A model generated the notes under the pieces. That model was not told the origin of the DNA, ran no database searches, and saw only the letters and a list, made by a program, of their open reading frames with translations. A stretch of DNA of 64,000 nucleotides from Christiangramia gaetbulicola (GTDB lineage: Bacteria; Bacteroidota; Bacteroidia; Flavobacteriales; Flavobacteriaceae): assembly GCF_003054225.1 (NCBI RefSeq), contig NZ_QBKQ01000001.1, positions 1 to 64,000 on the forward strand, in the 5' to 3' direction. The translations under genes were made by a program, and so were the position numbers. Positions 5,980 through 44,936 of this stretch are shown here, piece by piece; position 1 is the stretch's first letter; the number at the start of each line of letters is the position of its first letter.

Positions 5980-6001
5980 TCTTGATAATTAAGATAATTT
6001 T

Positions 6002-14858: not shown

Positions 14859-14883
14859 TATTCTAAATATCAGTAATATAAAG

Positions 14884-14914
14884 GCCTTTCAGAGATTATT
14901 CTGAAAGGCTTTTT
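14884..14914 (+). terminator. Terminator after transketolase genes
   Basis: GCCTTTCAG (14884-14892) and CTGAAAGGC (14901-14909) form a perfect 9-bp stem around an eight-base loop, followed by six T residues. Confidence 0.92.
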
Positions 14915-14978
14915 TAATTCTATAGAAATAAACATTCGTTAAACAGCGTTATATTAGCTGAACATAAATAGGAAATAA

Positions 14979-15581: not shown

Positions 15582-15600
15582 AAGAAGATATAAATAGAAA

Positions 15601-15624
15601 AACCCGGAATTTCCGGGTTTTTTT
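15601..15624. terminator. Bidirectional terminator between barrel protein and recQ
   Basis: AACCCGGAA (15601-15609) pairs with TTCCGGGTT (15611-15619), with T residues on the right and A residues on the left. It serves the rightward barrel-protein gene and the leftward recQ. Confidence 0.9.
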
Positions 15625-15629
15625 ATGTC

Positions 15630-17825
15630 TTAATTTGCGACCTGACTTATAAACTTTATCCTGTATAATCGAAGTTCTTCATCGTCATAATCTCCATCAA
15701 ACTCCTCCATCGCTTCATCTATCTTATCAGATTCAGCTTCCAGAAAATATTCGTGGATCTCTTCCTGCTGATCTTCATCCAGGATATCATCCAGCCAGTA
15801 ATCTATATTCAGTTTTGTTCCGCTATAAACAATAGCTTCCATTTCTTTAATGAATTCGGGCATCGCCATACCTTTTGCCGATGCAATATCTGTTAATGGT
15901 AACTTCCGGTCTACGCTCTGAATGATATATAATTTGAGAGAACTATTAGCACCCGTAGATTTCACTACAAAATCATCTGGCCTTACTATATCGTTATCTT
16001 CAACATATCTGGCAATAAGCTCCACGAACTCCTTCCCGTACTTCTTGGCCTTCCCTTCGCCTACCCCATGAATATTGCTTAATTCCTCTATGTTTATAGG
16101 ATATTTAAGCGCCATATCTTCCAGAGATGGATCCTGAAATATTACAAACGGTGGAAGGTCTTTTTTCTTGGCGACTTTCTTCCGAAGTTCTTTCAGTATT
16201 TTCACCAGTTGTTCATCAACTGCCGCTCCACCTTTATCAGCTTTGATCACATCCTCGGTAGCATCATTGAAAATATGATCTTCGGTCATCATGAAAGAAA
16301 CAGGATTCTTGAGATACTCCCTACCTTTTTCGGTGATCTTAACCACGCCGTAGGTTTCTATATCTTTTTTAAGATAACCGCCAACCAGGGCCTGCCTGGT
16401 AAGAGCCATCCAGTAATTACTATCCTGGTGCTTCCCTTTTCCGAATAAAGGATGTTCATCGGTTTTATGAGAAAGTATAAGAGCGTTAGACTTTCCTATC
16501 AGGGTTTTTACAACCTCTTTAGACTTATATAGTTCGTTGGTTTCCTTAACTGTTCTCAGCAGTAATTCAAGGTCTTCTTTCGCTTCATGCTGTTTCTTTG
16601 GATTGCGAACATTATCGTCCATACTTGCACCTTCTCCGGTTTCAGAATCAAATTCTTCTCCGAAATAATGCAGGATGAATTTTCTCCTGGAAACAGAAGT
16701 CTCGGCATAAGCAACCACTTCCTGTAAAAGCGCATGACCAATTTCCTGTTCTGCAACAGGCTTACCGCTCATGAATTTTTCTAGTTTCTCTATATCCTTG
16801 TATGAATAAAAAGCGAGACAATGCCCCTCACCACCATCACGACCGGCACGACCGGTTTCCTGGTAGTAACTCTCAATACTTTTCGGGATATCATGGTGGA
16901 TCACAAAACGAACGTCGGGTTTATCTATACCCATACCAAAAGCGATGGTCGCCACTACCACATCTATATCCTCCATAAGGAACATATCCTGGTGTTTAGA
17001 CCTGGTCTTGGCATCCAGTCCCGCATGATAGGGAACCGCTTTAATTCCGTTTACCTGAAGCGTCTGGGCCAACTCCTCAACCTTTTTACGGCTAAGGCAA
17101 TAAATAATACCAGATTTACCATCGTTCTGTTTTACGAACCTGGTAATATCAGCTTCAATATTCTTCGTTTTCGGTCTTACCTCGTAGTAAAGATTAGGCC
17201 TGTTAAAACTGGCCTTAAAGGTCTTTGCCCCGGTAATTCCAAGATTCTTCAGGATATCTTCCTGAACCTTTGGAGTCGCCGTCGCCGTTAACCCGATAAC
17301 GGGAATATTATCGCCTATCCTTTTCAGAATATGACGAAGGTTTCGGTATTCCGGTCTAAAGTCGTGTCCCCATTCACTAATACAGTGAGCTTCATCTACG
17401 GCAAGAAAAGAAATAGTCTGATTTTTAAGAAAATCTACATAATCTTCTTTGGTAAGCGATTCCGGCGCCACATAAAGTAATTTACAGATACCATTTCTAA
17501 TATCGTCCTTTACTCTAGCAACTTCGGTTTTATTTAAAGAGGAGTTGAGAACATGGGCTACGCCATGCTCAGAGGAGATGCTACGAATTGCATCTACCTG
17601 ATTCTTCATTAATGCTATAAGGGGCGATACCACTATTGCAGTACCGTCTGATATAAGTGCCGGGAGTTGGTAACATAGTGATTTCCCTCCGCCAGTTGGC
17701 ATAACTACGAAAGTATCATTTCCTTTAACTATGCTGGTAATTACTTCTTCCTGAAGCCCCTTAAACTGACTAAATCCAAAGTACCTCTTAAGTTCTTTGT
17801 GTAAATCAATTTCGGTCAAAGCCAT
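15630..17825 (-). CDS. recQ: ATP-dependent DNA helicase RecQ
   Basis: A 3'-5' DNA helicase for recombination and repair. The 731-residue protein has Walker [15 protein letters not shown] near residue 43, the DEAH box ([17 protein letters not shown], including the aromatic-rich loop), the SAT-like [11 protein letters not shown], and motif [12 protein letters not shown]. These are followed by an RQC region and an HRDC domain ([24 protein letters not shown]). The C-terminus extends beyond the HRDC domain with a further acidic region. In the RQC zinc-binding subdomain I see few cysteines after [16 protein letters not shown], so the zinc site may be degenerate. More than one recQ is common in this group. 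Confidence 0.93.
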
Positions 17826-17829
17826 TCAA

Positions 17830-17855
17830 TTGTGTTACAATTTTACATACATTTG
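17830..17855 (+). promoter_or_regulatory. Candidate kdsD promoter
   Basis: TACATTTG at 17848-17855 is a perfect -7 element 55 bp before the kdsD start. The nearest TTG (17830-17832) is only 15 bp upstream, shorter than usual, so the -33 assignment is weak. Confidence 0.45.
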
Positions 17856-17909
17856 CATTACTAAATATACATATTTCTTTAGTACCTGCAATTCTTAATT
17901 TAATCTAAT

Positions 17910-18875
17910 TTGAAACTTAGCGATCAAATCATTTCTACTGCAAAAGAAACCATTTCCAATGAAGCAGAAGCAATTGCGAACCTCATAAATTTTATAGACG
18001 AAGAATTTACCCAGGCGGTGGAAATCATCTATCGTTCTGAAGGTCGTGTTGTGGTTACGGGAATTGGTAAAAGCGCGATCATAGCTAATAAGATCGTGGC
18101 GACTTTAAACTCTACAGGAACTCCGTCTATTTTCATGCATGCCGCAGATGCTATTCACGGTGATCTTGGTATTGTTCAGGATAACGATGTGGTTATCTGT
18201 ATTTCTAAAAGTGGTAATAGTCCGGAAATTAAAGTTTTGGTTCCGCTAATAAAAAATTTCAATAATACCTTAATAGGCCTTACCGCCAACAAGGAATCTT
18301 TCTTGGGAAAGGAAGCAGATTTTGTTCTGAATTGTTACGTGGAAAAGGAAGCCTGTCCTAATAACCTGGCTCCTACTACCAGTACTACCGCGCAAATGGT
18401 GATTGGTGATGCTCTGGCCGTTTGTCTTTTAAATTTAAAAGGCTTCAGTAGTAAGGATTTTGCCAAATATCATCCTGGAGGTTCTCTCGGAAAGAAGCTT
18501 TATTTGAGAGTAAGTGATATTACCTCTCAGAATATGGTTCCGCAGGTATCCCCGGAAACCGATGTCGCGAATACCCTGATCGAGATCTCTGAAAAAATGC
18601 TGGGAGTAACCGCAGTTTTGGAAAATGACAAGATCATTGGTATTATTACCGATGGAGATATTCGTAGGATGCTGAAAGATCATTCAGATATCAAGGGGTT
18701 GAAGGCTAGAGACATCATGAGCAAAAATCCAAAAACCATAGACCAGGATACTTTAGCGGTGGAAGCTTTAGAAGTTTTGGAAAAGAATAAAATATCTCAA
18801 TTACTTGCTACTGAAAATGGCAAATATGCAGGAGTTGTACATCTGCATAACTTAATAAGAGAAGGAATTTTATAA
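17910..18875 (+). CDS. kdsD: Arabinose-5-phosphate isomerase (TTG start)
   Basis: Converts ribulose-5-phosphate to arabinose-5-phosphate, the first step of the Kdo pathway for LPS. The 321-residue protein has an N-terminal SIS domain (GRVVVTGIGKSAIIANKI, HAADAIHGDLG, SKSGNSPEIKVLVP, EACPNNLAPTTSTTAQ) and two CBS domains at the C-terminus (GVTAVLENDKIIGIITDGDIRR and ISQLLATENGKYAGVVHLHNL). An in-frame stop lies at 17901-17903 and the full family length is reached only from TTG at 17910. The stop overlaps the tatC ATG by one base (TAATG). Confidence 0.92.
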   Translation: MKLSDQIISTAKETISNEAEAIANLINFIDEEFTQAVEIIYRSEGRVVVTGIGKSAIIANKIVATLNSTGTPSIFMHAADAIHGDLGIVQDNDVVICISKSGNSPEIKVLVPLIKNFNNTLIGLTANKESFLGKEADFVLNCYVEKEACPNNLAPTTSTTAQMVIGDALAVCLLNLKGFSSKDFAKYHPGGSLGKKLYLRVSDITSQNMVPQVSPETDVANTLIEISEKMLGVTAVLENDKIIGIITDGDIRRMLKDHSDIKGLKARDIMSKNPKTIDQDTLAVEALEVLEKNKISQLLATENGKYAGVVHLHNLIREGIL

Positions 18876-31417: not shown

Positions 31418-33274
31418 CTAATTGGGAAAACGATATTTTTCTATTGTTTCAATTTCCAAATTTAAACTTGCGTTTGCTATAATTTCTGTATTACCAAAAG
31501 GCCACTGAACCAATTCTTTCCTTTGCATTGTTCTTTCTTTTATATGTTCAAACTGCCCTTTTCCAAGATGATTTGGATGAAAATAGGAATTTAAATAATT
31601 TTCCAGCTCAGGATGTTGATAAATTAAAGGCCAGTTCAAAGATTTGAATAATCGATACCTCTTATTTAGATCTTTACTTCTAACCAGCCGCTTAATTAGA
31701 TAATGGTCAATCTTTGAACGAATACCCCAGACCGGCATTTTTAAAAGTCGCGGAAAGTTTTGAGGTATAATTGGCGCCTGACTGGTTGGAATAGTATTTA
31801 GATTTTTCAGGCCCTTTAACTTAAATAATTTATTTAAAAATCTATTCCCTAACCTGAGATTTGGATGAATGTTACTTGTTCGTCTAAGGAGCTGTATAGA
31901 CATTGGAGGACAATAGGAAAAGAAATCTGAATTACATAATAAAATTTGTTTTCCCATGGGGATTCTAGAATGTGTATACCACATAAAAAGCTCATCATAT
32001 AATTCTGTATAAGGAAGGTTATGAGACTCTATCCTTGAAAAAATTTCATTTAGATCATGATGAATCCCATTAATAAATTGTTCTTTTTTAAGACTTAACT
32101 GAAATTTACCTGTTCTTTTATCAGTATACCATCTGTCATAATGGGCTGTAGTTCTTCTTTTCCAATCCTGGAAATTAACCTTATTGGCATTTTCAAATAA
32201 ATAATCACTTCCAAAAAAATGATATTTAAAAAAATTCTTCTGTCTGAAATTTCTTCCAGAGTAGGCTTTAATATTTCTTCCAGAAAGTGCTTCGGTCATA
32301 TCGCCTAAAAGAATAGGTTTCCTCGTTTTTATTTGGATGTTTTCAAGTATTTCCAACCAAGAACAGACTAGAACAGCCTCTGTTTTTAGATGATAATTTT
32401 TCAATATTTCTGGAGGAGGAAAATAAAGATCTATTTGTGAGTGATTTTCAAAGCTAGATTTTGCTTTCCCTGCTAATTTCTTAGCCACTTTTGTTTCATA
32501 ATAGTCGTCTTCACCGTAGGTAAGGCATTTAGTCTTTTTAAAGTTTGGAATAGCACCTAGTAGCAGTCGGCTATCCAATCCTCCACTTAAGGCTATATTC
32601 ACTTCATCAAAATCAATTAATGCATATTCCACTTCCTTCTGATATTGTATCCAATAATCATGATGCAAGTCTTGAGATTTATTTGATGTTGAAATATTCT
32701 GGTAAAGTGAATTATCGAATTTCCTGGCAACAATCTTTTTGTCTTTAATCTTTATATATTCACCCGGTAACAGCCTTTTGCAGCCCTTTAATATGGTTCT
32801 AGAACCAAAATTAGAATATTCAGGACCAATACCTCTTTGGATAATTCCCACATCATCAAAATCACAATTGGAAATTATCGCCATTAAGATCAGGCTGTTA
32901 GAAATATAAACTTCATCATCTATAAACAAATAATAAACAGGATAGACACCAATTAAGTCATTGCAAATAATAACTTCATTTTTTTCACTTTGACCAATTA
33001 TAGCCGAAAAAGATCCAGTTATACAATTTGGTAATGGCCAGTCTTTTATTATTTGATTTGCACAGCTAAAAATATGTTTAGAAATGTTTTCTGGAGGCAA
33101 ATTGAAATCCCGCATATATCCTTCAGTAAAGCAAAAAAAATCGTCATGATTTATTATTTCTGAAGAATTCTCAATTAAACATTGAAATTTACCAAAAGTT
33201 TTATTTTCTAAATCAAATGGTAAATTTGCCAAATGAGATCGATATAGTTTTTTAGTGGTCATCAAAAATTTCAT
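31418..33274 (-). CDS. Asparagine-synthase-like amidotransferase without glutaminase cysteine
   Basis: A 618-residue protein related to AsnB. Residues 85-135 resemble the later part of a glutaminase (Ntn) domain (FSAIIGQSEKNEVIICNDLIG, VYISNSLILM), but there is no Cys directly after the initiator Met, so glutamine hydrolysis by the normal route is unlikely. The synthetase domain carries the PP-loop SGGLDS at 230-235, so ATP-dependent activation of a carboxylate is expected. Such proteins occur in polysaccharide loci, where some amidate uronic or other sugar acids. ATGA-type coupling to the upstream GT2 (4 nt overlap). The substrate is a guess; free ammonia or a partner would have to supply nitrogen. 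Confidence 0.8.
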   Translation of the reverse strand: MKFLMTTKKLYRSHLANLPFDLENKTFGKFQCLIENSSEIINHDDFFCFTEGYMRDFNLPPENISKHIFSCANQIIKDWPLPNCITGSFSAIIGQSEKNEVIICNDLIGVYPVYYLFIDDEVYISNSLILMAIISNCDFDDVGIIQRGIGPEYSNFGSRTILKGCKRLLPGEYIKIKDKKIVARKFDNSLYQNISTSNKSQDLHHDYWIQYQKEVEYALIDFDEVNIALSGGLDSRLLLGAIPNFKKTKCLTYGEDDYYETKVAKKLAGKAKSSFENHSQIDLYFPPPEILKNYHLKTEAVLVCSWLEILENIQIKTRKPILLGDMTEALSGRNIKAYSGRNFRQKNFFKYHFFGSDYLFENANKVNFQDWKRRTTAHYDRWYTDKRTGKFQLSLKKEQFINGIHHDLNEIFSRIESHNLPYTELYDELFMWYTHSRIPMGKQILLCNSDFFSYCPPMSIQLLRRTSNIHPNLRLGNRFLNKLFKLKGLKNLNTIPTSQAPIIPQNFPRLLKMPVWGIRSKIDHYLIKRLVRSKDLNKRYRLFKSLNWPLIYQHPELENYLNSYFHPNHLGKGQFEHIKERTMQRKELVQWPFGNTEIIANASLNLEIETIEKYRFPN

Positions 33275-34302
33275 GATGGTAAAGTAACTTCAGATTTTCG
33301 TTTTTGATAGAAATAATCTGGTTTTTTGAAAGGTAACTTTATCCAGGCAAAGAAACGTCCAAAAGCATCCCTTAAAGCCCCTTTTTCTCGGTTAATTATG
33401 CCATTTTTAATCCTGATTAAGCTTAATAGTATAACAATAGCATTCCATTTTAAAATAGATTTTATATCCGGATTAGGATATTTTAATTTCCAAACGATCC
33501 AGCCGTTCTCTACAACCATCTTTCCGTATTTAAAATAATCTGGTCTACCTGCTTTATCATGTAGGTGAAAACATTGTGCCCCCGTATTCAATAACAATTT
33601 ACCAATCCGAGATGCGCGAAGACAGAACTCCATATCTTCATATAAACCATAACCATCAAAATATTCAGAGAAACTTATCTTTTCAAAAAGACTTCTTTTA
33701 TAACCTGAAACACCACCCATAAAATACTCTACTTGATGAGTTTTCCCATTTGGCGGATAAAAACCAATTGAAAAACCATTTGAATATTTAGGCATAATCC
33801 CTGGAGGTTTACAACTCAACAAACCAAATATTTTTCTTAAAACATTTCTGGCTCCAAGATCTCTATAATAACCGTCCCGGTAATAATATTTAAAATCTTT
33901 GCTTTTATTTTCATCCAGTTCTTTCCAAACAGCCTCATTTATAATTGCTCCTCCTACTCCAATTGCATCTGGAAACTGATTAAATGTTGAAATTATTTGT
34001 TTAAAATAATTTGGCTTCAAAACAATATCATCATCCAAAAAACAAATAATTTCATTTTGTTTATTAACTAATTCTACACCAATATTTCGTTGTTTAGTTA
34101 GACCTCGCTGTTCATTTTCAACTTTATAATACTTTAGATTTAAAATTTTTCTCGCTTTTAATAAGTTTTCAGTATTGTTATCTATTGAACCGTCTATTAC
34201 CAAAATTTCATTTGGATAAACATCTTGGGATTTCACAGAATTTAAAAGTCTAAGTATAGACCCAGGTCTCATATAGGTGCAAATAATCAAACTAAATTTC
34301 AT
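33271..34302 (-). CDS. Glycosyltransferase family 2
   Basis: A 343-residue GT-A inverting enzyme. MKFSLIICTYMRPGSILRLL is the standard family start, so I place the start at 34302 and not at an in-frame ATG eight codons earlier. EILVIDGSIDNN and the metal-binding FLDDDIVLKPNYF (DDD) follow, then GGVSGYKRSLFEKI and the acceptor-side YGLYEDMEFCLRAS (ED base). The C-terminus has hydrophobic segments (WNAIVILLSLIRI). Its 5' end overlaps the upstream gene by 11 bases. Confidence 0.88.
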   Translation of the reverse strand: MKFSLIICTYMRPGSILRLLNSVKSQDVYPNEILVIDGSIDNNTENLLKARKILNLKYYKVENEQRGLTKQRNIGVELVNKQNEIICFLDDDIVLKPNYFKQIISTFNQFPDAIGVGGAIINEAVWKELDENKSKDFKYYYRDGYYRDLGARNVLRKIFGLLSCKPPGIMPKYSNGFSIGFYPPNGKTHQVEYFMGGVSGYKRSLFEKISFSEYFDGYGLYEDMEFCLRASRIGKLLLNTGAQCFHLHDKAGRPDYFKYGKMVVENGWIVWKLKYPNPDIKSILKWNAIVILLSLIRIKNGIINREKGALRDAFGRFFAWIKLPFKKPDYFYQKRKSEVTLPS

Positions 34303-35857
34303 CGAATAAACTTGTTTGTGAATCAATCTGTCTAGACCAGATCTCGCTTATCTGCCACCTTTTCTTCATAACATGAATATATACAAAAGGGTTTTTAATT
34401 GTTTGTCTGCGGTAATATTTTATAAAAAGCGCAATTTTATATCCTTTCTTCATAAATTCACTAAAATGAGAATTCACTAATAGCATCATAGTGGGAGATG
34501 GTTTAGGTAAAATATTCCCAACCTCCCATGGCTTTTTAATTGGCTCTCGAAATCCGCCACGTGGAGCTTTTAAATGCGTTATATAGACCTTGGGATGATA
34601 AATAATATCTAGACCATTATTTCTTAATTGCAAACCATAATCAGTATCCTCTCCAAATCCAAATTCAAACTCAGTACGAAAAACACATTTTTTCGCATAC
34701 TCCGCAGCGACTATAGAACTACCAGAAGCAAATGCCCCCCATTGCTTGATCTTAGGAAAAACGGTAGAGCATCCTTCTTCAAGGCAATTCACATTAAGTG
34801 ATTTTATCGCCAATCTATGGATTTCGCACATAGCAAATTTTAGAAAGTTTTCAGAAAGTCGAATATCGTCATCAGCAAAAAAAATCCATTTAGCACTAAC
34901 AAGTTCTAATGCCATATTTCTTGCTCTACATGCTCCTACCTTATGGATAAACCTATGCTCTATTAGAAAAGGCCATTTTTGCTGAGTAACCTTTAATAAT
35001 TGAGAAACACCATAAGGGTCTGGATCTTGCTCAATCACTATCACTTTTTTAGGCAAAAAACTTTGGGACGCGAGATCTTTTAGCGTTTGTTCTATATAAT
35101 CAGGTCGTTTTAATGTAGGTATGATGACATCCAATGAAGCCTCTTGATCCAGCTCACTTATTTTATTATTTAATAAATCACTTAAATCTACTCCCTCAGT
35201 TTTCTCAAAATACTTTGTATTAAAAAACGCCTTCAAAAAAGAAATTAAAGGAAACCTTCTTTCGTATTTCATATAACAAAATAAAAGGACAAACAGCCAT
35301 TCTGTTTTGTAAAATTGAAAAACGAACTTAAAAAAGTCAGAAATCGAGGCATCAAAAGTTCGAAAATTCAAACTTGCCCTTTTATGTAAAAGATTTGGTT
35401 GAGAATAACAAAATATAGAATTCTGTTGACCAATTTTAGCAATTGAATTAAGAAGATAACCAAAATCATTGATTCTTTTAAAAATTGGAAAAAATTTTTG
35501 GGCTGTTTCACCTTTAATTCCACCAACATCAGTACTCATTCGCCAGCTAGGATATTTAATATTGTAATTTGGGTTAACAAATGGCATTTGATCTATGTAA
35601 CCAATAGAGTCTGGTAAAAATTGACTCTCAATTGCGTATGATAGCATGAGATTATTTTGAGAAAAAATACTACCTAAATCCTTTATATTAAGGTAATTCT
35701 CATATTTTTTTTCAACCCATATAATGGTATGAAGCGCGTATTTTTTTGTCAAATACCAGAATTGATCCACCAAATTGGCAGATTCAACATCTATCCTTTG
35801 ACCATCTAAAAGAATTTTTTCAACCGTCCTCCCCTTTTCATGAATCAAGATCAACAT
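34292..35857 (-). CDS. GT2 glycosyltransferase with long N-terminal extension
   Basis: A 521-residue protein. Residues about 240-480 form a GT2 catalytic domain: SLDVIIPTLKRPDYIEQTL, KKVIVIEQDPDPYG, WIFFADDDIRLSENFL (DDD metal site) and FEFGFGEDTDYGLQLRNNG (ED). Residues 1-230 have no recognised domain; they begin LILIHEKGRTVEKILLDGQ and contain a hydrophobic stretch WLFVLLFCYMKYERRF near residue 195. The extension could bring the enzyme to the membrane or handle a second substrate. Donor unknown. Confidence 0.82.
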   Translation of the reverse strand: MLILIHEKGRTVEKILLDGQRIDVESANLVDQFWYLTKKYALHTIIWVEKKYENYLNIKDLGSIFSQNNLMLSYAIESQFLPDSIGYIDQMPFVNPNYNIKYPSWRMSTDVGGIKGETAQKFFPIFKRINDFGYLLNSIAKIGQQNSIFCYSQPNLLHKRASLNFRTFDASISDFFKFVFQFYKTEWLFVLLFCYMKYERRFPLISFLKAFFNTKYFEKTEGVDLSDLLNNKISELDQEASLDVIIPTLKRPDYIEQTLKDLASQSFLPKKVIVIEQDPDPYGVSQLLKVTQQKWPFLIEHRFIHKVGACRARNMALELVSAKWIFFADDDIRLSENFLKFAMCEIHRLAIKSLNVNCLEEGCSTVFPKIKQWGAFASGSSIVAAEYAKKCVFRTEFEFGFGEDTDYGLQLRNNGLDIIYHPKVYITHLKAPRGGFREPIKKPWEVGNILPKPSPTMMLLVNSHFSEFMKKGYKIALFIKYYRRQTIKNPFVYIHVMKKRWQISEIWSRQIDSQTSLFDEI

Positions 35858-36898: not shown

Positions 36899-37900
36899 TT
36901 ATTTTGGCTCTAGATCAGATTCGTTCAAAAACCCCCATTTTTCAATATCTCTTTTCAATTTTTTCCCAATAACTTTTTCAAACTTCGAAGCATCTATCCC
37001 GTAACCTTTAGGTTTCTTTGCTTCCAAATCTTCAAAATAAAGCTGATCTCCTTTTTTAAGATCTTTATTTACTGAAAGAGATTTCTCGAAGATATTCTTG
37101 AGTTCTTTAAATTTTGCTATGTCATTCTTATTAACCGGATTTTTTAAGGCAAGTTCAATATTTTTTGAGGCAACTACTAATTGCTCTACTTCTGAGATTT
37201 CCAAAGAGGAACTGGCATCTGGTCCTTTGGAATTTCTATCGAAGACAACATGAAATTCCAATATTTCAGCACCCAGACTAGCAGCAGCGATGCAGGTTTC
37301 TATTTTTGCAGAATGGTCTGAAAATCCAACCTTTACATCATATCTTCTTTTCAGTTCCTGAATAACATTTAATCCATAATTTACGGGTTGAGTTGGATAA
37401 GCCGTCGTACACTGTAAAATAGAAAAATTAGCATTGTGCTTTTTTAAATATTTTACAGTCTTATCAAGTTCTTCAAAACTGCTCATACCAGATGATAGAA
37501 TTATTGGTTTTTGGGTTTCCATTATTCTTTTCAGCATTAAAAAATTACTGACCTCTCCAGAACCAATCTTATATCTTTTAACTCCAATTTTTTCTAGCAG
37601 ATCGACTGCAGCATTACTAAAGGGTGAGGCCATAAATTCCAGGTTCAATTCATCACAATGTTGCTTTAATCCTCTCCATTCGTCGATGGAAAATTCCATT
37701 CTCTTCCAATAGTCATATCGTGTTTTATCATCAGTATCCACACTAATCCTAAAAGGCTCATGAATACTACTTTCTGCTTCTGCCAAATGTACTTGAAACT
37801 TTACTGCGTCTACGCCAGTCTTACTCAACGCTTCGATATAATCATGAGCTACTTTAATTTTTCCATCATGAGCCTGAGCTATTTCAGAGATTATAAACAT
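36899..37900 (-). CDS. neuB: N-acetylneuraminate synthase-type enzyme (NeuB family)
   Basis: Condenses phosphoenolpyruvate with an N-acylated hexosamine to make a nonulosonic acid (sialic, legionaminic or pseudaminic acid). The 333-residue protein has the TIM-barrel motifs DAVKFQVHLAE, FMASPFSNAAVDLLEKIG, YKIGSGEVSN, ILSSGMSS, QCTTAYPTQP and GFSDHSA, then a C-terminal SAF (antifreeze-like) domain (SVNKDLKKGDQLYFEDLEAKKP). The exact sugar cannot be decided. No CMP-sugar synthetase (neuA) or second-step genes are in the window, so they should lie beyond the right edge or elsewhere. Confidence 0.9.
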   Translation of the reverse strand: MFIISEIAQAHDGKIKVAHDYIEALSKTGVDAVKFQVHLAEAESSIHEPFRISVDTDDKTRYDYWKRMEFSIDEWRGLKQHCDELNLEFMASPFSNAAVDLLEKIGVKRYKIGSGEVSNFLMLKRIMETQKPIILSSGMSSFEELDKTVKYLKKHNANFSILQCTTAYPTQPVNYGLNVIQELKRRYDVKVGFSDHSAKIETCIAAASLGAEILEFHVVFDRNSKGPDASSSLEISEVEQLVVASKNIELALKNPVNKNDIAKFKELKNIFEKSLSVNKDLKKGDQLYFEDLEAKKPKGYGIDASKFEKVIGKKLKRDIEKWGFLNESDLEPK

Positions 37901-37908
37901 TTTTTCCC

Positions 37909-39003
37909 TTACGATTTATTCATTAGTTTAATGGCTACTTCAATACAATTTGTTTTTTTTTTAATTTTATAATTGTAGGGGTTTTCCCTGTAAAAAGAAA
38001 TTAGGTGAAGTAACAATTTATCATTAACCTCTTTTAAAGTATAAAATTCTGCTTTTAGCCCTCCCCTTTTTAGAACTTGTTTTAATTTAATCCCAGAAAA
38101 AACCTTTTGCCGTTGTTCAATTACTTGAAATTTGAGAATTTTGTCAAGTGCTACTGGTAATATTCCATATAATAAATGATCAACATCCTCTTTTTTTGTG
38201 GTTAATTTTAAGTCCACTTCAGATTTCTCCAGTTGCTCGAATTCTTCTTCGGTGATACACTTCCCCCAATTCTTTCCGTTCACCTTGGTCTTTTTCTCCC
38301 TTTTTGCGTACCGATAATGCATCAAGTTGATCCTTACAATACCTGAAATTTGTAAAAGATTGTCCAGATGACATACATTTTGAGATCTGTAACTCTCATG
38401 CCATTGATGTAACATCAAAATTTCCTGATCATAAAATTCCACCTCATATCCTGCATTTCTAATCCTTACATGCATATCACTATCTTCGGCTCCCCAAAAA
38501 TGATAGAACTCATCAAATCCATTCAATTCTTTCAAAACCGAAACAGGAAACATAGATAGACCGGTTGCCTCCTGTGTACTTTTTCGATATTTCTTAAAGT
38601 CTTGAAAATTAAAACCATCAAAAGATTGTTTAGGATTTAGAAATCCTACCTGAAAATAAACGGTTTTGTTTAAGTATTGCAGTTTTTTTGCAGATTCAAT
38701 AAATCTAGGGTGAAAGATCATATCAATATCTGCTACGAAACAAAATTCTGAATTTAAGTCCTTTACTACTGAATTAATCGCTCTGCTTTTATTCCACGGT
38801 TGTAAAAAGCAGGGATGGTATTTATAGGTTAGGAACTTATAGCTTTTACTAAAGTCTTTTACCTTTTCTGCAATTTCCCTTTCAGAACCATAATCAATAA
38901 GATAAGCTTCAAAATCTGAATCAGTTTGAATACAGAGGGAGTCTAAAGATCTTTTTAATCTTTCTAAATCTCTGTTTCTGTATGTAAAAATAAGTGTAAG
39001 CAA
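37909..39003 (-). CDS. Glycosyltransferase family 2 with galactosyltransferase-type C-terminus
   Basis: A 364-residue GT-A enzyme: LTLIFTYRNRDLERLKRSL, the DxD site in FCFVADIDMIFHPRFI, and the GT7-type motif FYHFWGAEDSDMHVRIRNAG. This pairing is found in bacterial chondroitin-polymerase-like transferases and many capsule enzymes. The start codon is TTG at 39003, 5 bp after the QueC-like gene. Donor unknown. Confidence 0.85.
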   Translation of the reverse strand: MLTLIFTYRNRDLERLKRSLDSLCIQTDSDFEAYLIDYGSEREIAEKVKDFSKSYKFLTYKYHPCFLQPWNKSRAINSVVKDLNSEFCFVADIDMIFHPRFIESAKKLQYLNKTVYFQVGFLNPKQSFDGFNFQDFKKYRKSTQEATGLSMFPVSVLKELNGFDEFYHFWGAEDSDMHVRIRNAGYEVEFYDQEILMLHQWHESYRSQNVCHLDNLLQISGIVRINLMHYRYAKREKKTKVNGKNWGKCITEEEFEQLEKSEVDLKLTTKKEDVDHLLYGILPVALDKILKFQVIEQRQKVFSGIKLKQVLKRGGLKAEFYTLKEVNDKLLLHLISFYRENPYNYKIKKKTNCIEVAIKLMNKS

Positions 39004-39008
39004 TTAGG

Positions 39009-40175
39009 TCACTTTGATTTAAGCATTTTTTTCAGGCCTTTTTTGTATTTATCAATTTTTTCGTCTAGCAACGCAATCCTAAACAAGGGCGACCAATATT
39101 TAGAATTTTTCAATAAAATTGCTAATTCTCTTGAGAAAACATTGTCCTTTTCATTTAAGATCTTACCAATAAATCTAACTTTTTCCGATTTATAAACATC
39201 CAGGTCGAACACCTCCTTATATAAGTTTAACTTCCCTAAAATTTCAAGAGTTAAAGCTGTCCGCATACATTTATCACATTTCGAACAATTAATGAATTTA
39301 CCGGAATTTCTCGAATTAGTACAGATATCAAGATTTTTATAGGTTGCTGGATAATTCGAAATAAATTCGGTACGCTCAATCCTATTCAGATGAACTGCTG
39401 AAGAGAAAAAAGTAATGGATTGTGTGGAGAGATATTGAGTATTCAGCAGATCATAATCTCCTGAATCCTTAGAACTAATGTCAAACTGATCGAAACGATG
39501 AGGTGAGGCATAGTAATAATTTCTGAAAAGTTTTTGAAGGTTAAGAATGCATGATAAGTTTCTGAAGGTATGCGTACGCTGAAAATTCATACGTAGGATT
39601 TCACTGATATTTGAATCTATCGGGATGAGCTCAATTTTTTGACTATTTGCAAATTTACTTACCTGCTTAAATTTCTGCTTGAATAATTTACGGGTATTTT
39701 CTCCTCCATAGTCTCCTAAGGAGCCTGCGTTTACGAATGTAAAATATTCGATCTTAAATGGTGGATTATCCTTTATATGATCATAATAGGTTGCAAACGA
39801 ATCTACCCCACAGGAAAGTCCCATTCCAGCTGAATTCCCAGTATTCACATTCTCATCATAAAGTTTATCCGGATTTATATTAATGGTTTTGAATTTAGAG
39901 TCTGCAAATTTTAAGGCTGGCATTAGGTAATGATTGATAGTATAGTAAAGTCTGGAAGAAATTTTAGATTTTATACTTATATCATACCCCATTTCCATGG
40001 CTTTAGGCAATATACCAACTAAAAAAGAGTCACAATTTTCTAAAGAAATATATTTTTCAAACTCCCTGGGAAGTTGAAACCAGAGATTCTCGGTTTGATT
40101 AGCAATTTCAATTTCCGAGGAAAGCTTTATGGTTTCGCCTTCATAACTCAAGACAGGCTGATTTATGATGATCAT
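39009..40175 (-). CDS. QueC-like PP-loop ATPase in a polysaccharide locus
   Basis: A 388-residue protein I do not recognise as a named family. It has a PP-loop ATP-pyrophosphatase motif SCGVDS at 121-126 (SGGxDS with one Gly to Cys change), as in QueC, TilS and asparagine synthetase. A cysteine cluster C285-X11-C297-X2-C300-X2-C303 (ICTN ... CSKCDKC) resembles the zinc site of QueC (7-cyano-7-deazaguanine synthase). QueC turns a carboxylate into an amide and then a nitrile by adenylation, so this enzyme may adenylate and amidate or otherwise convert a sugar carboxylate. It is much longer than QueC (about 220-230 residues), with an extra N-terminal 110 residues. It lies between a GT4 and a GT2, three genes from neuB. 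Function inferred, not known. Confidence 0.65.
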   Translation of the reverse strand: MIIINQPVLSYEGETIKLSSEIEIANQTENLWFQLPREFEKYISLENCDSFLVGILPKAMEMGYDISIKSKISSRLYYTINHYLMPALKFADSKFKTININPDKLYDENVNTGNSAGMGLSCGVDSFATYYDHIKDNPPFKIEYFTFVNAGSLGDYGGENTRKLFKQKFKQVSKFANSQKIELIPIDSNISEILRMNFQRTHTFRNLSCILNLQKLFRNYYYASPHRFDQFDISSKDSGDYDLLNTQYLSTQSITFFSSAVHLNRIERTEFISNYPATYKNLDICTNSRNSGKFINCSKCDKCMRTALTLEILGKLNLYKEVFDLDVYKSEKVRFIGKILNEKDNVFSRELAILLKNSKYWSPLFRIALLDEKIDKYKKGLKKMLKSK

Positions 40176-40176
40176 A

Positions 40177-41331
40177 TCAATTCTCTAAATTATCCTGAAT
40201 AAATTTATATTTATTTACTACCTGGTTTACTACTAGATTTCTATTAAGAGTAGGTCGTATAAACTTATCATTGTAAGCTATGGCTTGCTGTCTAAGTTCG
40301 GGTAATTCAATCGCTCTTTTAATCAAACGTGCAATTCTATTGGAATCTTCTGGATCGTCTATCAAGAAACCATTTTGTTCAGGATTAATAATCTCTCTGG
40401 TAGCATCTCCTGGATTAGACTGGATGGGGAAAGCCCCCATAACGATTGCCTCTAGCAAAGTATTGGGCATCCCGTCTGAAATACTATTACCAATATATAT
40501 TAAGGAGCGCCCCATATATTTCAAAACTTCAATATTTGGAATCTTACCAAAAAAATTAAAATTCTCCCAATTATCCAATTGTTTCTGTTTAATGAACTCT
40601 TCTACTCGTTTATTCCCACCAAATACAATTAGTTCATAATTTTGAAGCTCCTTCTTCAAATAACAAACTGCTTCCAAAATTTTATTGCATCTACCCAAAT
40701 GGCTCTCATAGCCTTTAATCAAAATAATATTTCTATTTTTAAAAGGAACTCTAAATTGAGCGTAATATTCCAGATCATAGCCACCGCCGCCCGGAAAAAC
40801 GCCTAGTTCTTTTCCCTTAAATCCTAAACTGCGAGCTACAAGCATATCTCTTTTACAATCAGTAAATAAAAAATCTATTTCAGGAAGTGTTTGTTTAATA
40901 TTTAAAATATCGTCAATCCCTGTTTGCTGCCTGTAGTACAAATCATTTCCCCAGGCTGAAAGAATCCATTTAATCTTCGGATATTTTTTCATCACATCTA
41001 AGATGGGGTATGCAGCCGGTTGCAAGGCAAAACTCTGAACTACATCCGGGGCTATCCTTTTTAATTCCTTTTCGAAAATGTGGGATAATTTTCTTTCATT
41101 GAAAATTTTCACACCTTTATGCAGACGTGGTAATTTGCTTTTTAAAAAATGTCTTCCAGGATAATCGTACTTATACCTCCAACCGGTGATCTGATGTACA
41201 AAATCCAGTTTTTCAACTTTTGTATTTGAGTCATATACATCAAGCCAGTAGATTTCATGATCTGTATCCTTCAACTGTTCGGTCCAGTTAAAAAAATGAT
41301 TGGAAAACATGGAAAGCATTAAAATTTTCAC
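40177..41331 (-). CDS. Glycosyltransferase family 4 (tandem paralogue C)
   Basis: A 384-residue GT-B enzyme, paralogue of the gene directly upstream. Shared elements include the N-terminus KILMLSMFSNHFFNW, AWGNDLYYRQQTG, GVFPGGGGYDLEY and the donor region YIGNSISDGMPNTLLEAIVMG. The catalytic EX7E pair is partly altered (D/E region SDGMPNTLLEA). Start codon GTG at 41331. Its stop is 1 bp before the QueC-like gene. Confidence 0.85.
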   Translation of the reverse strand: MKILMLSMFSNHFFNWTEQLKDTDHEIYWLDVYDSNTKVEKLDFVHQITGWRYKYDYPGRHFLKSKLPRLHKGVKIFNERKLSHIFEKELKRIAPDVVQSFALQPAAYPILDVMKKYPKIKWILSAWGNDLYYRQQTGIDDILNIKQTLPEIDFLFTDCKRDMLVARSLGFKGKELGVFPGGGGYDLEYYAQFRVPFKNRNIILIKGYESHLGRCNKILEAVCYLKKELQNYELIVFGGNKRVEEFIKQKQLDNWENFNFFGKIPNIEVLKYMGRSLIYIGNSISDGMPNTLLEAIVMGAFPIQSNPGDATREIINPEQNGFLIDDPEDSNRIARLIKRAIELPELRQQAIAYNDKFIRPTLNRNLVVNQVVNKYKFIQDNLEN

Positions 41332-41335
41332 GTGC

Positions 41336-42484
41336 TTATCTTAAATTATCTTCAACTTTTTGATATTTTTCCAAAACTTTAACTTTTAGATATTGCCTAT
41401 CTAATTTTGGCTTTATGTGTTTAGAATTATATGTAATACCGGTTTTTACCATTTCCGGTTTCTCTAGTGCCTGCCTAAGGTGATTGGCTATTTCAGATAC
41501 ATCCATAGGATCTTTGATTAAAAAACCATTCTTCCCATTTTGTATGGTTTCTGCAGTTGCACCACCTGGATCGCTCTGTATAGGAAAGCATTCCATAATA
41601 ATCGCTTCAAGTAAGGTATTAGGTGTTCCATCAGAAATGCTATTACCTACATAGATTAAGGATTTACCCATTAACTTCAGAACTTCATCCCTACCTATCT
41701 TGCCATGAATTTTAAGATTCATCATATTTTTGAACTTCGGCTTTTTAAGAAAGTCCCGTAGTTTATCTGTGGCGGCAAAAACCACAATTTCATAATTACC
41801 AAGAAGTTCCTGAATTTCAAATATAGCCTGCATAATGTTCTCTGCTCTTCCAAATTTATGCTCATAGCCTTTTACGAGAATTATCTTACGTTCATTGAAA
41901 TTTTGCAAAAATTTATCTGAATATTCTAGGTCATAACCGCCTCCACCGGGAAATGTACCTAAATACTCTGCATTAAAGCCATATTTTTCAGCAAGAAGAA
42001 GATCACGGGTACAATCAGCAAACATATAATCCAATCTCGCATATACTTTACGAATATCTTCTATTTTTTTTGGATCCTTCTGATAATAAAAAACGTCATT
42101 CCCCCATGCAGAATAGATCCAACTGATTTTTGGATGCTTTTTCATGATTTCCACAACTGGAACGCAGGCAGAATGCATTTCAAAACTTTGAACTACATCA
42201 GGCTTAAAATCCTTCAGTTTCTTTTCGAATATTTTCAGGAAATTTCTGGAGTTATATTTTTCTATAATCTTATCAGTTTCAGGAAAGTGATTTTTGATCC
42301 AATAACGCCCGGGATATTCCACTCGTCTCTTCCACTTAACCGTTTGCCCCACAAAATCAATTCGATTTACGTAGGTATTTGCATCATTTACATCGATCCA
42401 ATGCAATTGATGATGGGAACCTTTTAACTGTAAGATCCAGTTAAACATATGGTTAGAGAAAACAGATACTACCAAAATTTTCAT
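41336..42484 (-). CDS. Glycosyltransferase family 4 (tandem paralogue D)
   Basis: A 382-residue GT-B enzyme, paralogue of the following gene: KILVVSVFSNHMFNW, SAWGNDVFYYQKD, GTFPGGGGYDLEYSDKF and YVGNSISDGTPNTLLEAIIM. The two clearly derive from a tandem duplication and may add successive, chemically similar residues. Its ATG overlaps the upstream stop by 4 nt (ATGA). Confidence 0.85.
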   Translation of the reverse strand: MKILVVSVFSNHMFNWILQLKGSHHQLHWIDVNDANTYVNRIDFVGQTVKWKRRVEYPGRYWIKNHFPETDKIIEKYNSRNFLKIFEKKLKDFKPDVVQSFEMHSACVPVVEIMKKHPKISWIYSAWGNDVFYYQKDPKKIEDIRKVYARLDYMFADCTRDLLLAEKYGFNAEYLGTFPGGGGYDLEYSDKFLQNFNERKIILVKGYEHKFGRAENIMQAIFEIQELLGNYEIVVFAATDKLRDFLKKPKFKNMMNLKIHGKIGRDEVLKLMGKSLIYVGNSISDGTPNTLLEAIIMECFPIQSDPGGATAETIQNGKNGFLIKDPMDVSEIANHLRQALEKPEMVKTGITYNSKHIKPKLDRQYLKVKVLEKYQKVEDNLR

Positions 42485-43749
42485 TTATCACTTAAAATTT
42501 GATTCATGGTATTTTCCAAATAACTTAAGGATAAGTATTCATGTAAGTCTGGACGAGAAAGTTGCAATCCTTTTGAGCTATTTTTCCATTGATGATATAG
42601 ACTTACAATAGAATCCAAGATTTTATCTTCCTGGTCAATCTCTGCCCAATATGGATAACTTTGCCCCACCAACCTTCTACATTCACTATAATATGGTCCA
42701 AGCAACAATATTGGTTTATTTGCTTTTACGCAATGAGGAAATTTTCCAGGCAAAAAAGGACTTATCTCCGATTTTGCTTCCAGAATAACGTTTACAGAAG
42801 TTAATTGCTGGAGTTTTTGAGTTTGACTAAACGACAAGGAATTTTTACTTACATAAATTTCAGAATTCTTATCACATATATCTTTTAAATATTCAGAATA
42901 ATGATTTTCAGGACCAATGAATAATAATTTACTTTCCCTTTTGGCATTAGGATAGAGATTTAAAAATTTACAAAAAGCGTTTATTAAGCCTTTAGGATCT
43001 CTACCCCAAAGCAAATTTCCAGCATGTAAAATATTGAAATGGTTCTTATCTATGAATGTTGGCAATTCATTTTCAGGCTCAACAGCTGATTCAATGATCT
43101 GGTGTGGTATAACTCTACCTTTTAATTGAAATTCTTCAAAATAACTTCCCATCCATTCCATTAAAAGTTTACTTGGAAAAATTGAAACAGCTGCAGCACT
43201 GGACATATTTTTCATAAACTTCCATTTCTTATAATATCCTGGCTCTACCCATGCATATGGCCTGGGATATAAATGCATAGGATATGGATCATGAATATAA
43301 GCAGCCCATTTATTGTGAAATTCAGGCATATTCAGCAAAGCGTGATGCGGTCTGAAACTTCCCCCTTTGCTCAGAGTTAAAACTAAATCCGGTTCAAACC
43401 CTTTAATACTCTTAAGTGCAGAAATTATACTGTTTCGATCATTAAAGAGGGTAAAGGAAAAGCCAAAGATCTTTTCGAGCGACTTATTTAAGTAGATTTT
43501 GAAGAACTTTCTGAAGTATCTTTCGATACGGCTAAATAAAAATAAAGCGCTTCTCCTCTTTTCTTTAATGGAAAAACACTCTACCCCTTTAATTTGAATT
43601 TCTTTCCGGGTATAATGGTAAACCTTTATATTGTAACCAATCTTAGCAAGGTTTTTGATAAGAGCGACCCTACCTTTGGTACCACTGCTATCTTCAATAT
43701 CAATCGATTCTGCTACAATTAAAATTTTTTTTGAATTTGGAAAACTCAA
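42481..43749 (-). CDS. Glycosyltransferase (GT-B type)
   Basis: A 422-residue protein starting SFPNSKKILIVAESIDIED. It has a glycosyltransferase-like Rossmann start, a long middle (LTLSKGGSFRPHHALL, AAYIHDPYPMHLYPRPYAW) and a donor-domain-like part (FNILHAGNLLWGRDP, LLFIGPENHYSEYL). The usual EX7E pair is not obvious, so family assignment is uncertain. The start is TTG at 43749; no in-frame ATG lies upstream before a stop. It is the first gene of the left block, facing the divergent wecB across 110 bp. Confidence 0.7.
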   Translation of the reverse strand: MSFPNSKKILIVAESIDIEDSSGTKGRVALIKNLAKIGYNIKVYHYTRKEIQIKGVECFSIKEKRRSALFLFSRIERYFRKFFKIYLNKSLEKIFGFSFTLFNDRNSIISALKSIKGFEPDLVLTLSKGGSFRPHHALLNMPEFHNKWAAYIHDPYPMHLYPRPYAWVEPGYYKKWKFMKNMSSAAAVSIFPSKLLMEWMGSYFEEFQLKGRVIPHQIIESAVEPENELPTFIDKNHFNILHAGNLLWGRDPKGLINAFCKFLNLYPNAKRESKLLFIGPENHYSEYLKDICDKNSEIYVSKNSLSFSQTQKLQQLTSVNVILEAKSEISPFLPGKFPHCVKANKPILLLGPYYSECRRLVGQSYPYWAEIDQEDKILDSIVSLYHQWKNSSKGLQLSRPDLHEYLSLSYLENTMNQILSDK

Positions 43750-43859: not shown

Positions 43860-44936
43860 ATGAAAATAGATTTAATTGCCGGTGCCAGACCCAATTTTGT
43901 TAAAATAGCAGCAATCCTACATGCAATTAAAAACTCTGATAAAAAATTTGATTATCGATTAATACATACCGGTCAACATTATGATCACAATATGAGTGGG
44001 AGTTTTTTTTCAGATCTCAACATTCCATTACCAGATATCACTCTAGAAAGCGGTAGTGGTACCCAGGCGCGGCAAACCGCTTCTATCATGACGGGATATG
44101 AAGACCTGGTATCTAAAAAAAGACCCGATTTATGTTTGGTTGTTGGAGATGTCAATTCCAGTATGGCTTGCGCAATTACCGCTAAAAAATCAAATATTAA
44201 GGTTGCTCATGTAGAAGCTGGTATACGCTCTGGAGATTTATCAATGCCAGAAGAAATCAATCGAATATTAATAGACAGCATTAGCGACTATTTCTTTACA
44301 ACTTCCAGAAAAGCAACCGATTTTTTATTAAATACAGGTAAAAGTAAAGAACAGGTTTTTTTTGTTGGTAATACTATGATTGATACACTTCGCAGGTTTG
44401 AAGCAGATTTCAAAAAACCTGAAGTTTGGGACACATTGAACTTGAAAAATACGCAATATTTAGTTCTTACCCTTCACAGGCCAAATAATGTGGATGAAGT
44501 TTCAAATTTAGTCAAGATCTTACATATTATAGGAGATAATTCAAGAGGCTTACCAATTATTTTTCCCGTTCATCCTCGAACCGCTAAAATTCTAAATTCT
44601 CAAAAGTTATCTCTCAAAAACGTCTTTTTCACTGCGCCACTTAGCTACCTGGAATTTAACTATCTGGTTAAGAATTCAAAAATGGTGATTACAGATTCTG
44701 GCGGTATCACCGAGGAAACAACGGTTCTCGGTATACCCTGTATAACCTTACGTAATAGTACAGAAAGACCTGAAACTGTTTCTATTGGCACTAATGAGTT
44801 AATTGGTACAGATTCAGAAAACATCCCGGAATATTTAGATAAATTATTTGAGGCTAGATGGAAGACGGGAGGAATTCCTGAACTTTGGGATGGAAAGTCT
44901 GGTATACGTATTTTGGAAGAGTTAAGTCGACTTTAA
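43860..44936 (+). CDS. wecB: UDP-N-acetylglucosamine 2-epimerase (non-hydrolysing)
   Basis: Interconverts UDP-GlcNAc and UDP-ManNAc in the cytoplasm. The 358-residue protein has the family motifs GARPNFVKIAAIL, THTGQHYDHNM-like IHTGQHYDHNMSG, VGDVNSSMACAI, HVEAGIRSGDLSMPEEINR, LTLHRPNNVD, and the UDP-binding ITDSGGITEETTVLGIPC and LRNSTERPETV. It is the only rightward gene in the 40-kb locus. Its end overlaps the convergent GT2 by 15 bases. ManNAc from this reaction could feed the neuB pathway if a hydrolysing step exists, or be used directly in a polysaccharide. Confidence 0.93.
   Translation: MKIDLIAGARPNFVKIAAILHAIKNSDKKFDYRLIHTGQHYDHNMSGSFFSDLNIPLPDITLESGSGTQARQTASIMTGYEDLVSKKRPDLCLVVGDVNSSMACAITAKKSNIKVAHVEAGIRSGDLSMPEEINRILIDSISDYFFTTSRKATDFLLNTGKSKEQVFFVGNTMIDTLRRFEADFKKPEVWDTLNLKNTQYLVLTLHRPNNVDEVSNLVKILHIIGDNSRGLPIIFPVHPRTAKILNSQKLSLKNVFFTAPLSYLEFNYLVKNSKMVITDSGGITEETTVLGIPCITLRNSTERPETVSIGTNELIGTDSENIPEYLDKLFEARWKTGGIPELWDGKSGIRILEELSRL

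Follow-up and report, generated by a model that had tools for sequence, protein, structure and literature searches.

What does a protein with a QueC-like adenylating core do among the genes of a surface-glycan locus? This question is raised by a gene at 39009..40175 (minus strand) in a stretch of 64,000 nucleotides from Christiangramia gaetbulicola (contig NZ_QBKQ01000001.1, positions 1 to 64,000; hereafter the window), which encodes from an ATG start a QueC-fold PP-loop enzyme of 388 amino acids. We propose, with a probability of roughly 40%, that this enzyme amidates a carboxylate of the glycan after adenylating it, a chemistry suggested by analogy with the PP-loop superfamily. That the carboxylate belongs to a ketal derived from phosphoenolpyruvate (PEP), such as those of pyruvyl ketals and nonulosonic acids, is a more tentative proposal, drawn from the gene partners only. 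Equally tentative is the idea that the gene is paired as a unit with one for a polysaccharide pyruvyl transferase, in which it would neutralize the ketal carboxylate, and that one clade of the source organism's family turned the enzyme to nonulosonic acids.

Gene partners of the family

Homologs were compared in a set of 45 members left after removal of duplicates, and one more homolog, L181 (G268), was added for motif counts only (46). A neuB gene or a gene for a PF04230-type polysaccharide pyruvyl transferase was found near, or fused to, the gene in 42 of the 46 members, with context labels set by hand. Both partner enzymes, the pyruvyl transferase and NeuB, use PEP, and both leave a carboxylate on the future ketal carbon. 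The initial annotation of the locus had taken neuB as the general partner of the gene; this did not hold, because neuB is the neighbor in the window's clade and a PF04230 gene is the neighbor elsewhere.

All 15 loci of a subfamily of about 430 amino acids (the 430-aa subfamily) have a PF04230-type gene directly next to the family member on the same strand, and Pfam, run on 4 of these 15 genes, was positive for all 4. PF04230 genes were also present directly upstream of the gene in the 3 Azospirillum loci fetched, adjacent on the same strand in both Gloeothece loci, in L032, and in phage L044, and one and two genes away in phages L136 and L043, respectively. In phage L042 a partial PF04230 domain is fused to the family member (E = 7e-4; 20.1 bits, under the 25.3-bit cut-off). 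This fused stretch shares 45% identity with the N-terminal region of the Paracoccus protein of L140, a region that has no Pfam match of its own. No other glycosyltransferase was annotated in the Azospirillum stretches fetched, where the gene tables are incomplete. A hidden Markov model (HMM) of the pyruvyl transferase was built from 10 proteins, all over the PF04230 cut-off. PF04230-type proteins were found in none of 18 neuB loci lacking the gene, and were absent from the window and from 11 of the 13 other neuB-clade loci carrying it, the exceptions being L031 and L033. On viral contig L044 we observed 2 tandem copies of the gene (3848-5011 and 4977-6134, plus strand), preceded by 6-deoxysugar-type genes and followed by the PF04230 gene; in one copy TLGVDS replaces the SxGxDS loop and a long stretch lies ahead of the cysteine cluster.

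In the window's clade, the gene lies at most 2 genes from neuB in 13 loci (the window, L021-L031, and L033), and in L002 the start of neuB was read by eye after the gene at the contig end. The gene of the window is packed in a same-strand run, 5 bp from a glycosyltransferase gene of the Glyco_transf_7C/GT2 type (37909..39003, minus strand; Pfam) and 1 bp from a GT4-type glycosyltransferase gene (40177..41331, minus strand; Pfam and comparison of loci), which form the 2 boundaries of a one-gene cassette. One gene away is neuB (36899..37900, minus strand), a nonulosonic acid synthase with a SAF domain (PF03102, E = 6.7e-70; SAF, E = 3.6e-4) that scored 300.9 bits against TIGR03569, under the cut-off of 399.65. 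Pfam and NCBIfam thus bore out the surface-glycan setting near neuB that had been read from the window. The gene stands alone between its flanking glycosyltransferase genes, which are separated by 1,167-1,215 bp, in 8 fetched loci and in the window. Among the 18 neuB loci lacking the gene, 6 (L117, L118, L119, L121, L122, and L124) have the same 2 genes abutting (gap of -4 to 13 bp) and followed by homologs of neuB, neuC, neuA, and asnB, as in many gene-bearing loci. The 18 loci were chosen by hand: 12 were taken one apiece from the 14 same-genus genomes in which no match had been found, and 6 came from other genomes. Because the cassette is present in some loci and absent in their relatives, the glycan is probably made with or without the gene, which fits a tailoring step.

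The order in which the 2 partners were acquired was analyzed on a midpoint-rooted tree of the 45 members with the hand-set context labels, in which L031 and L033 were labeled neuB although a PF04230 gene is present there too. The PF04230 context required 4 changes (14.9 with shuffled labels) and the neuB context required 2 (12.2 with shuffled labels), on a tree that has L142 as a long branch and several weak inner branches, and whose support near the window's clade falls partly below the starred level. Because the PF04230 context occurs on both sides of the midpoint root, the tree favors an earlier association with PF04230 and a later one with neuB.

In QueC and Cap9, a carboxylate is activated by ATP and then taken by an amine (PMC13279940, PMC13329287). 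This chemistry, together with partners that build PEP-derived ketals, leads us to propose amidation of the ketal carboxylate. ATP would adenylate the sugar-acid carboxylate of the surface glycan, and an amine, ammonia foremost, would displace AMP to give a neutral amide. The target carboxylate would sit on the ketal carbon derived from PEP, that is, C1 of the nonulosonic acid in the neuB clade and the 1-carboxyethylidene (pyruvyl ketal) group made by the PF04230 enzyme in the other clades. If this is true, the charge of a glycan would be mispredicted from its pyruvyl transferase or neuB genes wherever the gene is present, a single optional gene would act as an off-switch for the negative charge of the glycan, and phages carrying the gene could change the surface charge of their host.

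Several observations weigh against this proposal; those that concern the partners are given here, and those that concern the QueC-like core are given with the profiles and the predicted fold below. The 15 loci of the 430-aa subfamily share a conserved block (sugar dehydrogenase, flippase, the gene, and PF04230, all names but the last being assigned by eye) and therefore are not independent and count as one lineage; the distant cases (Azospirillum, Gloeothece, L032, and the phages) carry more weight. The PF04230 proteins at the family loci are putative pyruvyl transferases, assigned by profile. In L002 and L033 the glycosyltransferase pair abuts although the gene is present alongside, and one flank of the cassette is occupied by a different gene in L024, L026, and L029. 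neuB occurs in 23 of 24 genomes of the genus, gene-bearing or not; we therefore discarded its presence as evidence and regarded only adjacency to it as informative. In addition, 30 of the 45 members come from the bacterial family of the source organism (Flavobacteriaceae), with Dokdonia included by guess.

The tie to sugar-acid genes expected by the initial annotation held for the 42 members with neuB or PF04230 and not for the other 4 of 46 (L001, L139, L142, and L181), which have neither partner. In L001, from Clostridia, neither was present within about 10 kb, and L142, from Nostoc, lies among transposases. The member of L139 (5931-10454) is part of an 848-amino-acid phage protein in which it is fused to a domain of the Asp/Asn beta-hydroxylase type (PF05118, E = 1.2e-10), with an alanine racemase and a TupA-like ATP-grasp protein encoded nearby on the other strand. 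L181 (9296-10474, minus strand), which belongs to another family of the same class, keeps both motifs, and no glycan gene, neuB, or PF04230 gene was recognized within about 9 kb on each side of it. On the Paracoccus yeei plasmids of L140 and L144 (9461-11137, plus strand), a 558-amino-acid fusion stands alone among unrelated catabolic genes. The partnerless members and Paracoccus thus indicate that the surface-glycan setting is common, not universal. As a separate observation, L001 contains at 13927-18208 (plus strand) a nucleotidyltransferase/PEP mutase fusion and a thiamine pyrophosphate enzyme, probably a phosphonopyruvate decarboxylase, which are likely a phosphonate branch.

These settings bear on whether the protein serves glycans at all. 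We consider it improbable that the protein acts in defense or regulation, is inactive, or is an enzyme of another pathway whose gene lies in glycan loci frequently though not invariably. The facultative presence of the gene, its carriage by phages, the altered TLGVDS loop in one L044 copy, and the position of L181 and Paracoccus outside glycan loci are what such a protein would lead one to expect, but the ATP loop and the cysteine cluster are kept across great divergence, and glycan genes surround most members whose neighbors were inspected.

Conserved motifs and relationship to QueC

The translation contains the residues that the initial annotation had named, namely the PP-loop S121-C-G-V-D-S126 (codons at 39798..39815, minus strand) and the cysteines C285, C297, C300, and C303 (codons at 39267..39323, minus strand), which with the spacing recomputed read C285-X11-C297-X2-C300-X2-C303. 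At 388 amino acids the protein is, as had been stated, some 160 residues longer than QueC, whose median length is about 222 amino acids (PMC13329287). An AlphaFold2 model built from a seven-row alignment, to which L181 did not contribute (nor did it to the tree), had a pLDDT of 86.9 and a pTM of 0.85. Its secondary structure gives an N-terminal alpha/beta extension (about residues 1-107), a PP-loop core (about 110-312), and then C-terminal helices, with the PP-loop placed between strand 115-119 and helix 124-133.

Both motifs are strongly conserved. Invariant columns of a 16-row alignment (A1) include S121, G123, D125, S126, C285, N296, C297, C300, K302, C303, R305, and T306, and those of a 28-row alignment (A4) are G123, D125, N189, R265, C285, N296, C297, C300, K302, C303, and F323. 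The C..NC-x2-C-x-K-C pattern was kept in 46 of 46 homologs (the 45 and L181) and the strict PP-loop S-x-G-x-D-[S/A] in 43 of 46, with near variants in one L044 copy, L139, and L142. The spacing before the first CxxC is x8 in 5 of 45 members only and ranges from x7 to x39 in the others. The strict zinc motif C(x)8CxxCxxC matches 0 of 21 QueC references too, and is therefore a poor test of a QueC-type site; the four-cysteine site of the family is probably a zinc site. The signature formed by a cysteine and N-C-x2-C-x-K-C after a PP-loop identifies proteins that are annotated as hypothetical in the plasmid records examined.

Membership of QueC itself was not supported. VPxRN and YPDC, the canonical QueC motifs (PMC13329287), were present in 21 of 21 QueC references and in 0 of 46 homologs, and carboxy-deazaguanine is therefore not expected as the substrate. 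A further motif, YxQxHxxE, was found in 0 of 45 homologs but in merely 3 of 21 QueC references, and hence is uninformative. We rejected QueC membership (PF06508 and TIGR00364) because scores were below the curated cut-offs and VPxRN and YPDC were missing in 46 of 46 homologs, and we also rejected a replacement of QueC in queuosine synthesis. The gene is carried by 10 of 24 same-genus genomes. A search of the source genome with TIGR00364 at E = 1e-20 found nothing, and the two proteins that match PF06508 there resemble GuaA and ArgG by sequence. PTPS was not seen among the 30 window proteins or the 25 neighbor families displayed of 80 (queE was not searched), and PTPS-family genes were found in 56 of 59 genomes, including the source genome. 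A role connected with 7-deazaguanine may be compatible with these genome counts.

Direct profile searches gave little. The 388-amino-acid protein was matched by no model of NCBIfam or PHROGs at E up to 0.1, of Pfam at E up to 1, or of PADLOC at E up to 10, and its only match in a sequence search of the PDB was unrelated (E = 1.1). Among 28 members scanned, 9 weakly matched Pfam DUF6395 (PF19932; best E = 0.045), 6 weakly matched Pfam QueC (best E = 0.013), and 2 weakly matched NCBIfam QatC (NF041925; best E = 0.054), every other Pfam family being matched by a single member. As sequence matches, those to DUF6395, QueC, and QatC are too weak for membership. Searched against the PDB with a limit of E = 1, the profile of the 28 members (A4) retrieved 16 sequences, of which 10 were PP-loop chains (E = 0.019-0.42). 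In profile-profile comparison with hhalign, the family aligned with TilS (65%), QueC (49%), GuaA (33%), MnmA (28%), AsnB (25%), WbuX (17%), NadE (14%), and ArgG (3%) over 8 to 60 columns, the reference sets for NadE, MnmA, and TilS comprising 2-3 rows each.

Here the points that count against a specifically QueC-like enzyme have to be weighed. The profile of the 16-row A1 alignment retrieved no PP-loop chain from the PDB, with 7 unrelated matches; the family aligns no better with QueC (49%) than with TilS (65%), while QueC aligns with other PP-loop families at 89-97%; and the 430-aa subfamily reaches only 12.5% with QueC, yet 98% with the main family. The structural searches were similar, with no PDB match in Foldseek at E of 0.001 or lower. 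The best PDB matches, all weak, were TilS, TrmU, NcsA, and GMP synthase. Among viral models (BFVD), the top 5 matches were annotated as 7-cyano-7-deazaguanine synthase (E = 4.4e-4 to 2.4e-3), with TM scores of 0.29-0.42 by query and 0.26-0.62 by target. The comparison with QueC, TilS, and NadE thus points to a loose kinship with PP-loop families and a specific one with none, and of the "QueC-like enzyme" of the initial annotation the PP-loop and the QueC-type cysteine cluster stand, whereas membership of QueC does not, with no profile match and VPxRN/YPDC absent in 46 of 46. The family is fairly described as a deep, uncurated branch of its own within the PP-loop (N-type ATP pyrophosphatase) superfamily, one whose core and cysteine site are QueC-like, and not as a QueC subfamily. 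It resembles QueC in its PP-loop core, its C-terminal C-x(n)-C-x2-C-x2-C site, and its best BFVD fold matches, and differs from it in the missing VPxRN/YPDC motifs, in length (388 versus about 222 amino acids), and in the lack of queuosine genes seen around the gene.

These relationships bear on 2 other reactions of the fold. The enzyme could, like QueC, form a nitrile on a sugar acid in 2 ATP-dependent steps, since QueC proceeds via an amide to the nitrile (PMC13329287) and the family has a QueC-like core and cysteine site. We regard this as very unlikely, because none of the 46 homologs retains VPxRN or YPDC and because Cap9 shows that a QueC scaffold need not yield a nitrile (PMC13279940). 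It could also transfer sulfur to, or perform another PP-loop reaction on, a glycan or nucleotide, a reading suggested by the presence of TrmU/MnmA and NcsA among the closest PDB folds and by a weak LarE match in 1 of 28 members (E = 0.11). No sulfur-carrier or cysteine-desulfurase family was found in the 25 neighbor families displayed of 80, and the four-cysteine layout behind the core is that of QueC, which leaves this reading with hardly more than a slight chance.

Comparison with conjugating and sugar-modifying enzymes

QueC-type enzymes have recently become known outside queuosine synthesis, in 2 anti-phage systems (PMC13279940, PMC13329287). Like QatC of qatABCD and Cap9 of type IV CBASS, the family has a QueC core used outside queuosine synthesis, and it may be asked whether it too is a conjugating ligase, linking a carboxylate that it has activated to an amine, which could belong to an amino acid, an amino sugar, or a protein N-terminus. 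We consider this possible though doubtful. QatC has N- and C-terminal extensions and a C(x)19CxxCxxC spacing (PMC13279940), and the family shares the layout of a core with extensions and the widened C4 spacing. Cap9 (9nto) was among the structural matches in the PDB Foldseek search, at rank 26 (E = 0.11; target TM score 0.60), and QatC NF041925 was matched by 2 of 28 members at a best E of 0.054. The fusion of L139 to an Asp/Asn hydroxylase-type domain near an alanine racemase and a TupA-like ATP-grasp protein would suit a ligase, as would the location of L181 and Paracoccus outside glycan loci. On the other hand, the 388-amino-acid protein has no PADLOC match and the QueC substrate motifs are absent, and neither a KAP NTPase nor TatD was found by Pfam among the 30 window proteins. 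The same facts set the family apart from QatC: PADLOC was negative, NF041925 gave a best E of 0.054 in 2 of 28 members, and KAP NTPase and TatD are missing from the 30 window proteins, while qatB, which has no Pfam model, was not sought. The N-terminal extension differs as well, beginning in the model with 3 successive strands, compared with a four-stranded parallel sheet and 3 helices in QatC (PMC13279940).

A second comparison concerns enzymes that already work in glycan loci. WbpG, PseA, and WbuX (TIGR03573) act on sugars, and PseA is a PP-loop tailoring enzyme beside NeuB-type genes. The family resembles them as a PP-loop enzyme in surface-glycan loci (PMC13329287) and could, like WbpG and PseA, activate an N-acyl group to form an acetamidino group. 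The PseA precedent of PP-loop tailoring near NeuB-type genes speaks for this reading, as do the placement of WbpG in cluster 5 of PF06508 (PMC13329287) and reports of acetamidino nonulosonic acids (PMC7371886). We judge it unlikely, because TIGR03573 was matched neither by the 388-amino-acid protein (E up to 0.1) nor by the 28 members (E up to 1), the order of the cysteine motif is reversed in cluster 5 (PMC13329287), WbuX aligned in hhalign at 17% over eight columns, no HisH/HisF-type family occurred in the 25 commonest of 80 families from 121 neighbor proteins, and the PF04230 pairing is left unexplained. The family differs from WbpG, PseA, and WbuX in lacking a profile match, in the opposite order of its cysteines, and in its neighbors. 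We also noticed at L107-L111, in the family of the source organism, reading frames of 1374-1417 amino acids that match WbuX under the cut-off and recall the giant flavobacterial subcluster of cluster 5 (PMC13329287); in L046, the same place as L107, the start resembles a non-ribosomal peptide synthetase by eye.

AsnB-type amidotransferases form amides on sugar acids in an ATP-dependent reaction and occur in O-antigen loci. Unlike these enzymes, the 388-amino-acid protein has no glutaminase domain and no PF00733 match. DUF6395 (PF19932), for which no paper was found in the open-access literature, is alike in its weak matches to 9 of 28 members, which in L042 and L043 lie over the cysteine region. 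The family would carry the QueC scaffold over to glycans of the cell surface and offers a partner enzyme that can be tested.

The AsnB-like gene at 31418

The initial annotation had paired the gene with an AsnB-like synthetase gene at 31418..33274 (minus strand; NCBIfam and translation) in a two-enzyme tailoring step. This pairing was not supported: a homolog of the 31418 gene was found in 3 of 14 neuB-clade loci with our gene and in 1 of 18 loci without it (Fisher p = 0.30; the short L002 contig could hide one), and we therefore rejected the pair. Whether or not a locus carries the gene, other AsnB-like genes can be present, and MCGI starts were read in gene-bearing loci. The survey of co-occurrence thus supported adjacency to neuB in the window's clade and did not support an AsnB-like partner. 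The 31418 protein starts with MKFLMTT and has no N-terminal cysteine as in glutamine-dependent AsnB; it is presumably an amide synthetase that cannot draw nitrogen from glutamine by itself. Its homologs in L021, L022, and L127 likewise lack an MC start.

Collection of homologs

The family is spread over bacteria of 4 phyla and phages. A contig scan gave 2 loci, from an uncultured Clostridia bacterium and Dokdonia. With the source genome counted, whole-genome searches found the gene in 18 of 198 relatives, including 10 of the 24 genomes of the genus, in 2 of 395 genomes of a phylum sample, and in 21 of 397 genomes of a family sample, 15 of them with the 430-aa subfamily; the phylum and family searches scored the 4 best candidates per genome, so that weak members may be missed. 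Plasmid records were matched in Azospirillum (7, of which 3 were fetched), Paracoccus (2), Gloeothece (2), and Nostoc (1). Three scans of IMG/VR, the first of which led nowhere, yielded 5 contigs, and INPHARED phage records contained no family match. A scan of 148 genomes for DUF6395 found no member, and its controls likewise gave nothing.

L135, L137, and L138 duplicate the contigs of L042, L043, and L044 and were left uncounted, and L034 (G184), a broken C-terminal piece at a contig end, was excluded from alignments and counts. A4 excludes L025, L027, L028, L029, and L144 as redundant, together with L169-L180 and L181. Genes were called as the longest open reading frame, which misreads loci of high GC content, and annotated genes were used for L140-L147. 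Neighbor families were scanned in 121 of the 147 neighbor proteins listed, with the 25 commonest of 80 families displayed.

The view that no glycan pathway of this kind had been described was upheld as far as the search reached: we found no published description of the family, of its pairings, or of amidated ketal acids in the open-access literature, which leaves subscription journals mostly and preprints wholly uncovered.

Other features of the window

On the far side of the cassette, a gene at 42481..43749 (minus strand) encodes a possible GT4-like glycosyltransferase (weak Pfam match, E = 0.038) with homologs in most related loci, followed by a gene for a UDP-GlcNAc 2-epimerase family protein (43860..44936, plus strand; PF02350, E = 2.6e-98). 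In the GT2 glycosyltransferase at 34292-35857 (minus strand), about 240 N-terminal residues are without any Pfam match. CTP_transf_3 (PF02348) was not listed for any of the 30 window proteins scanned with Pfam. No neuC or neuA homolog accompanies neuB in the stretches compared for the window, L021, and L022, in contrast to L023-L031, where homologs of neuB, neuC, neuA, and asnB are clustered.

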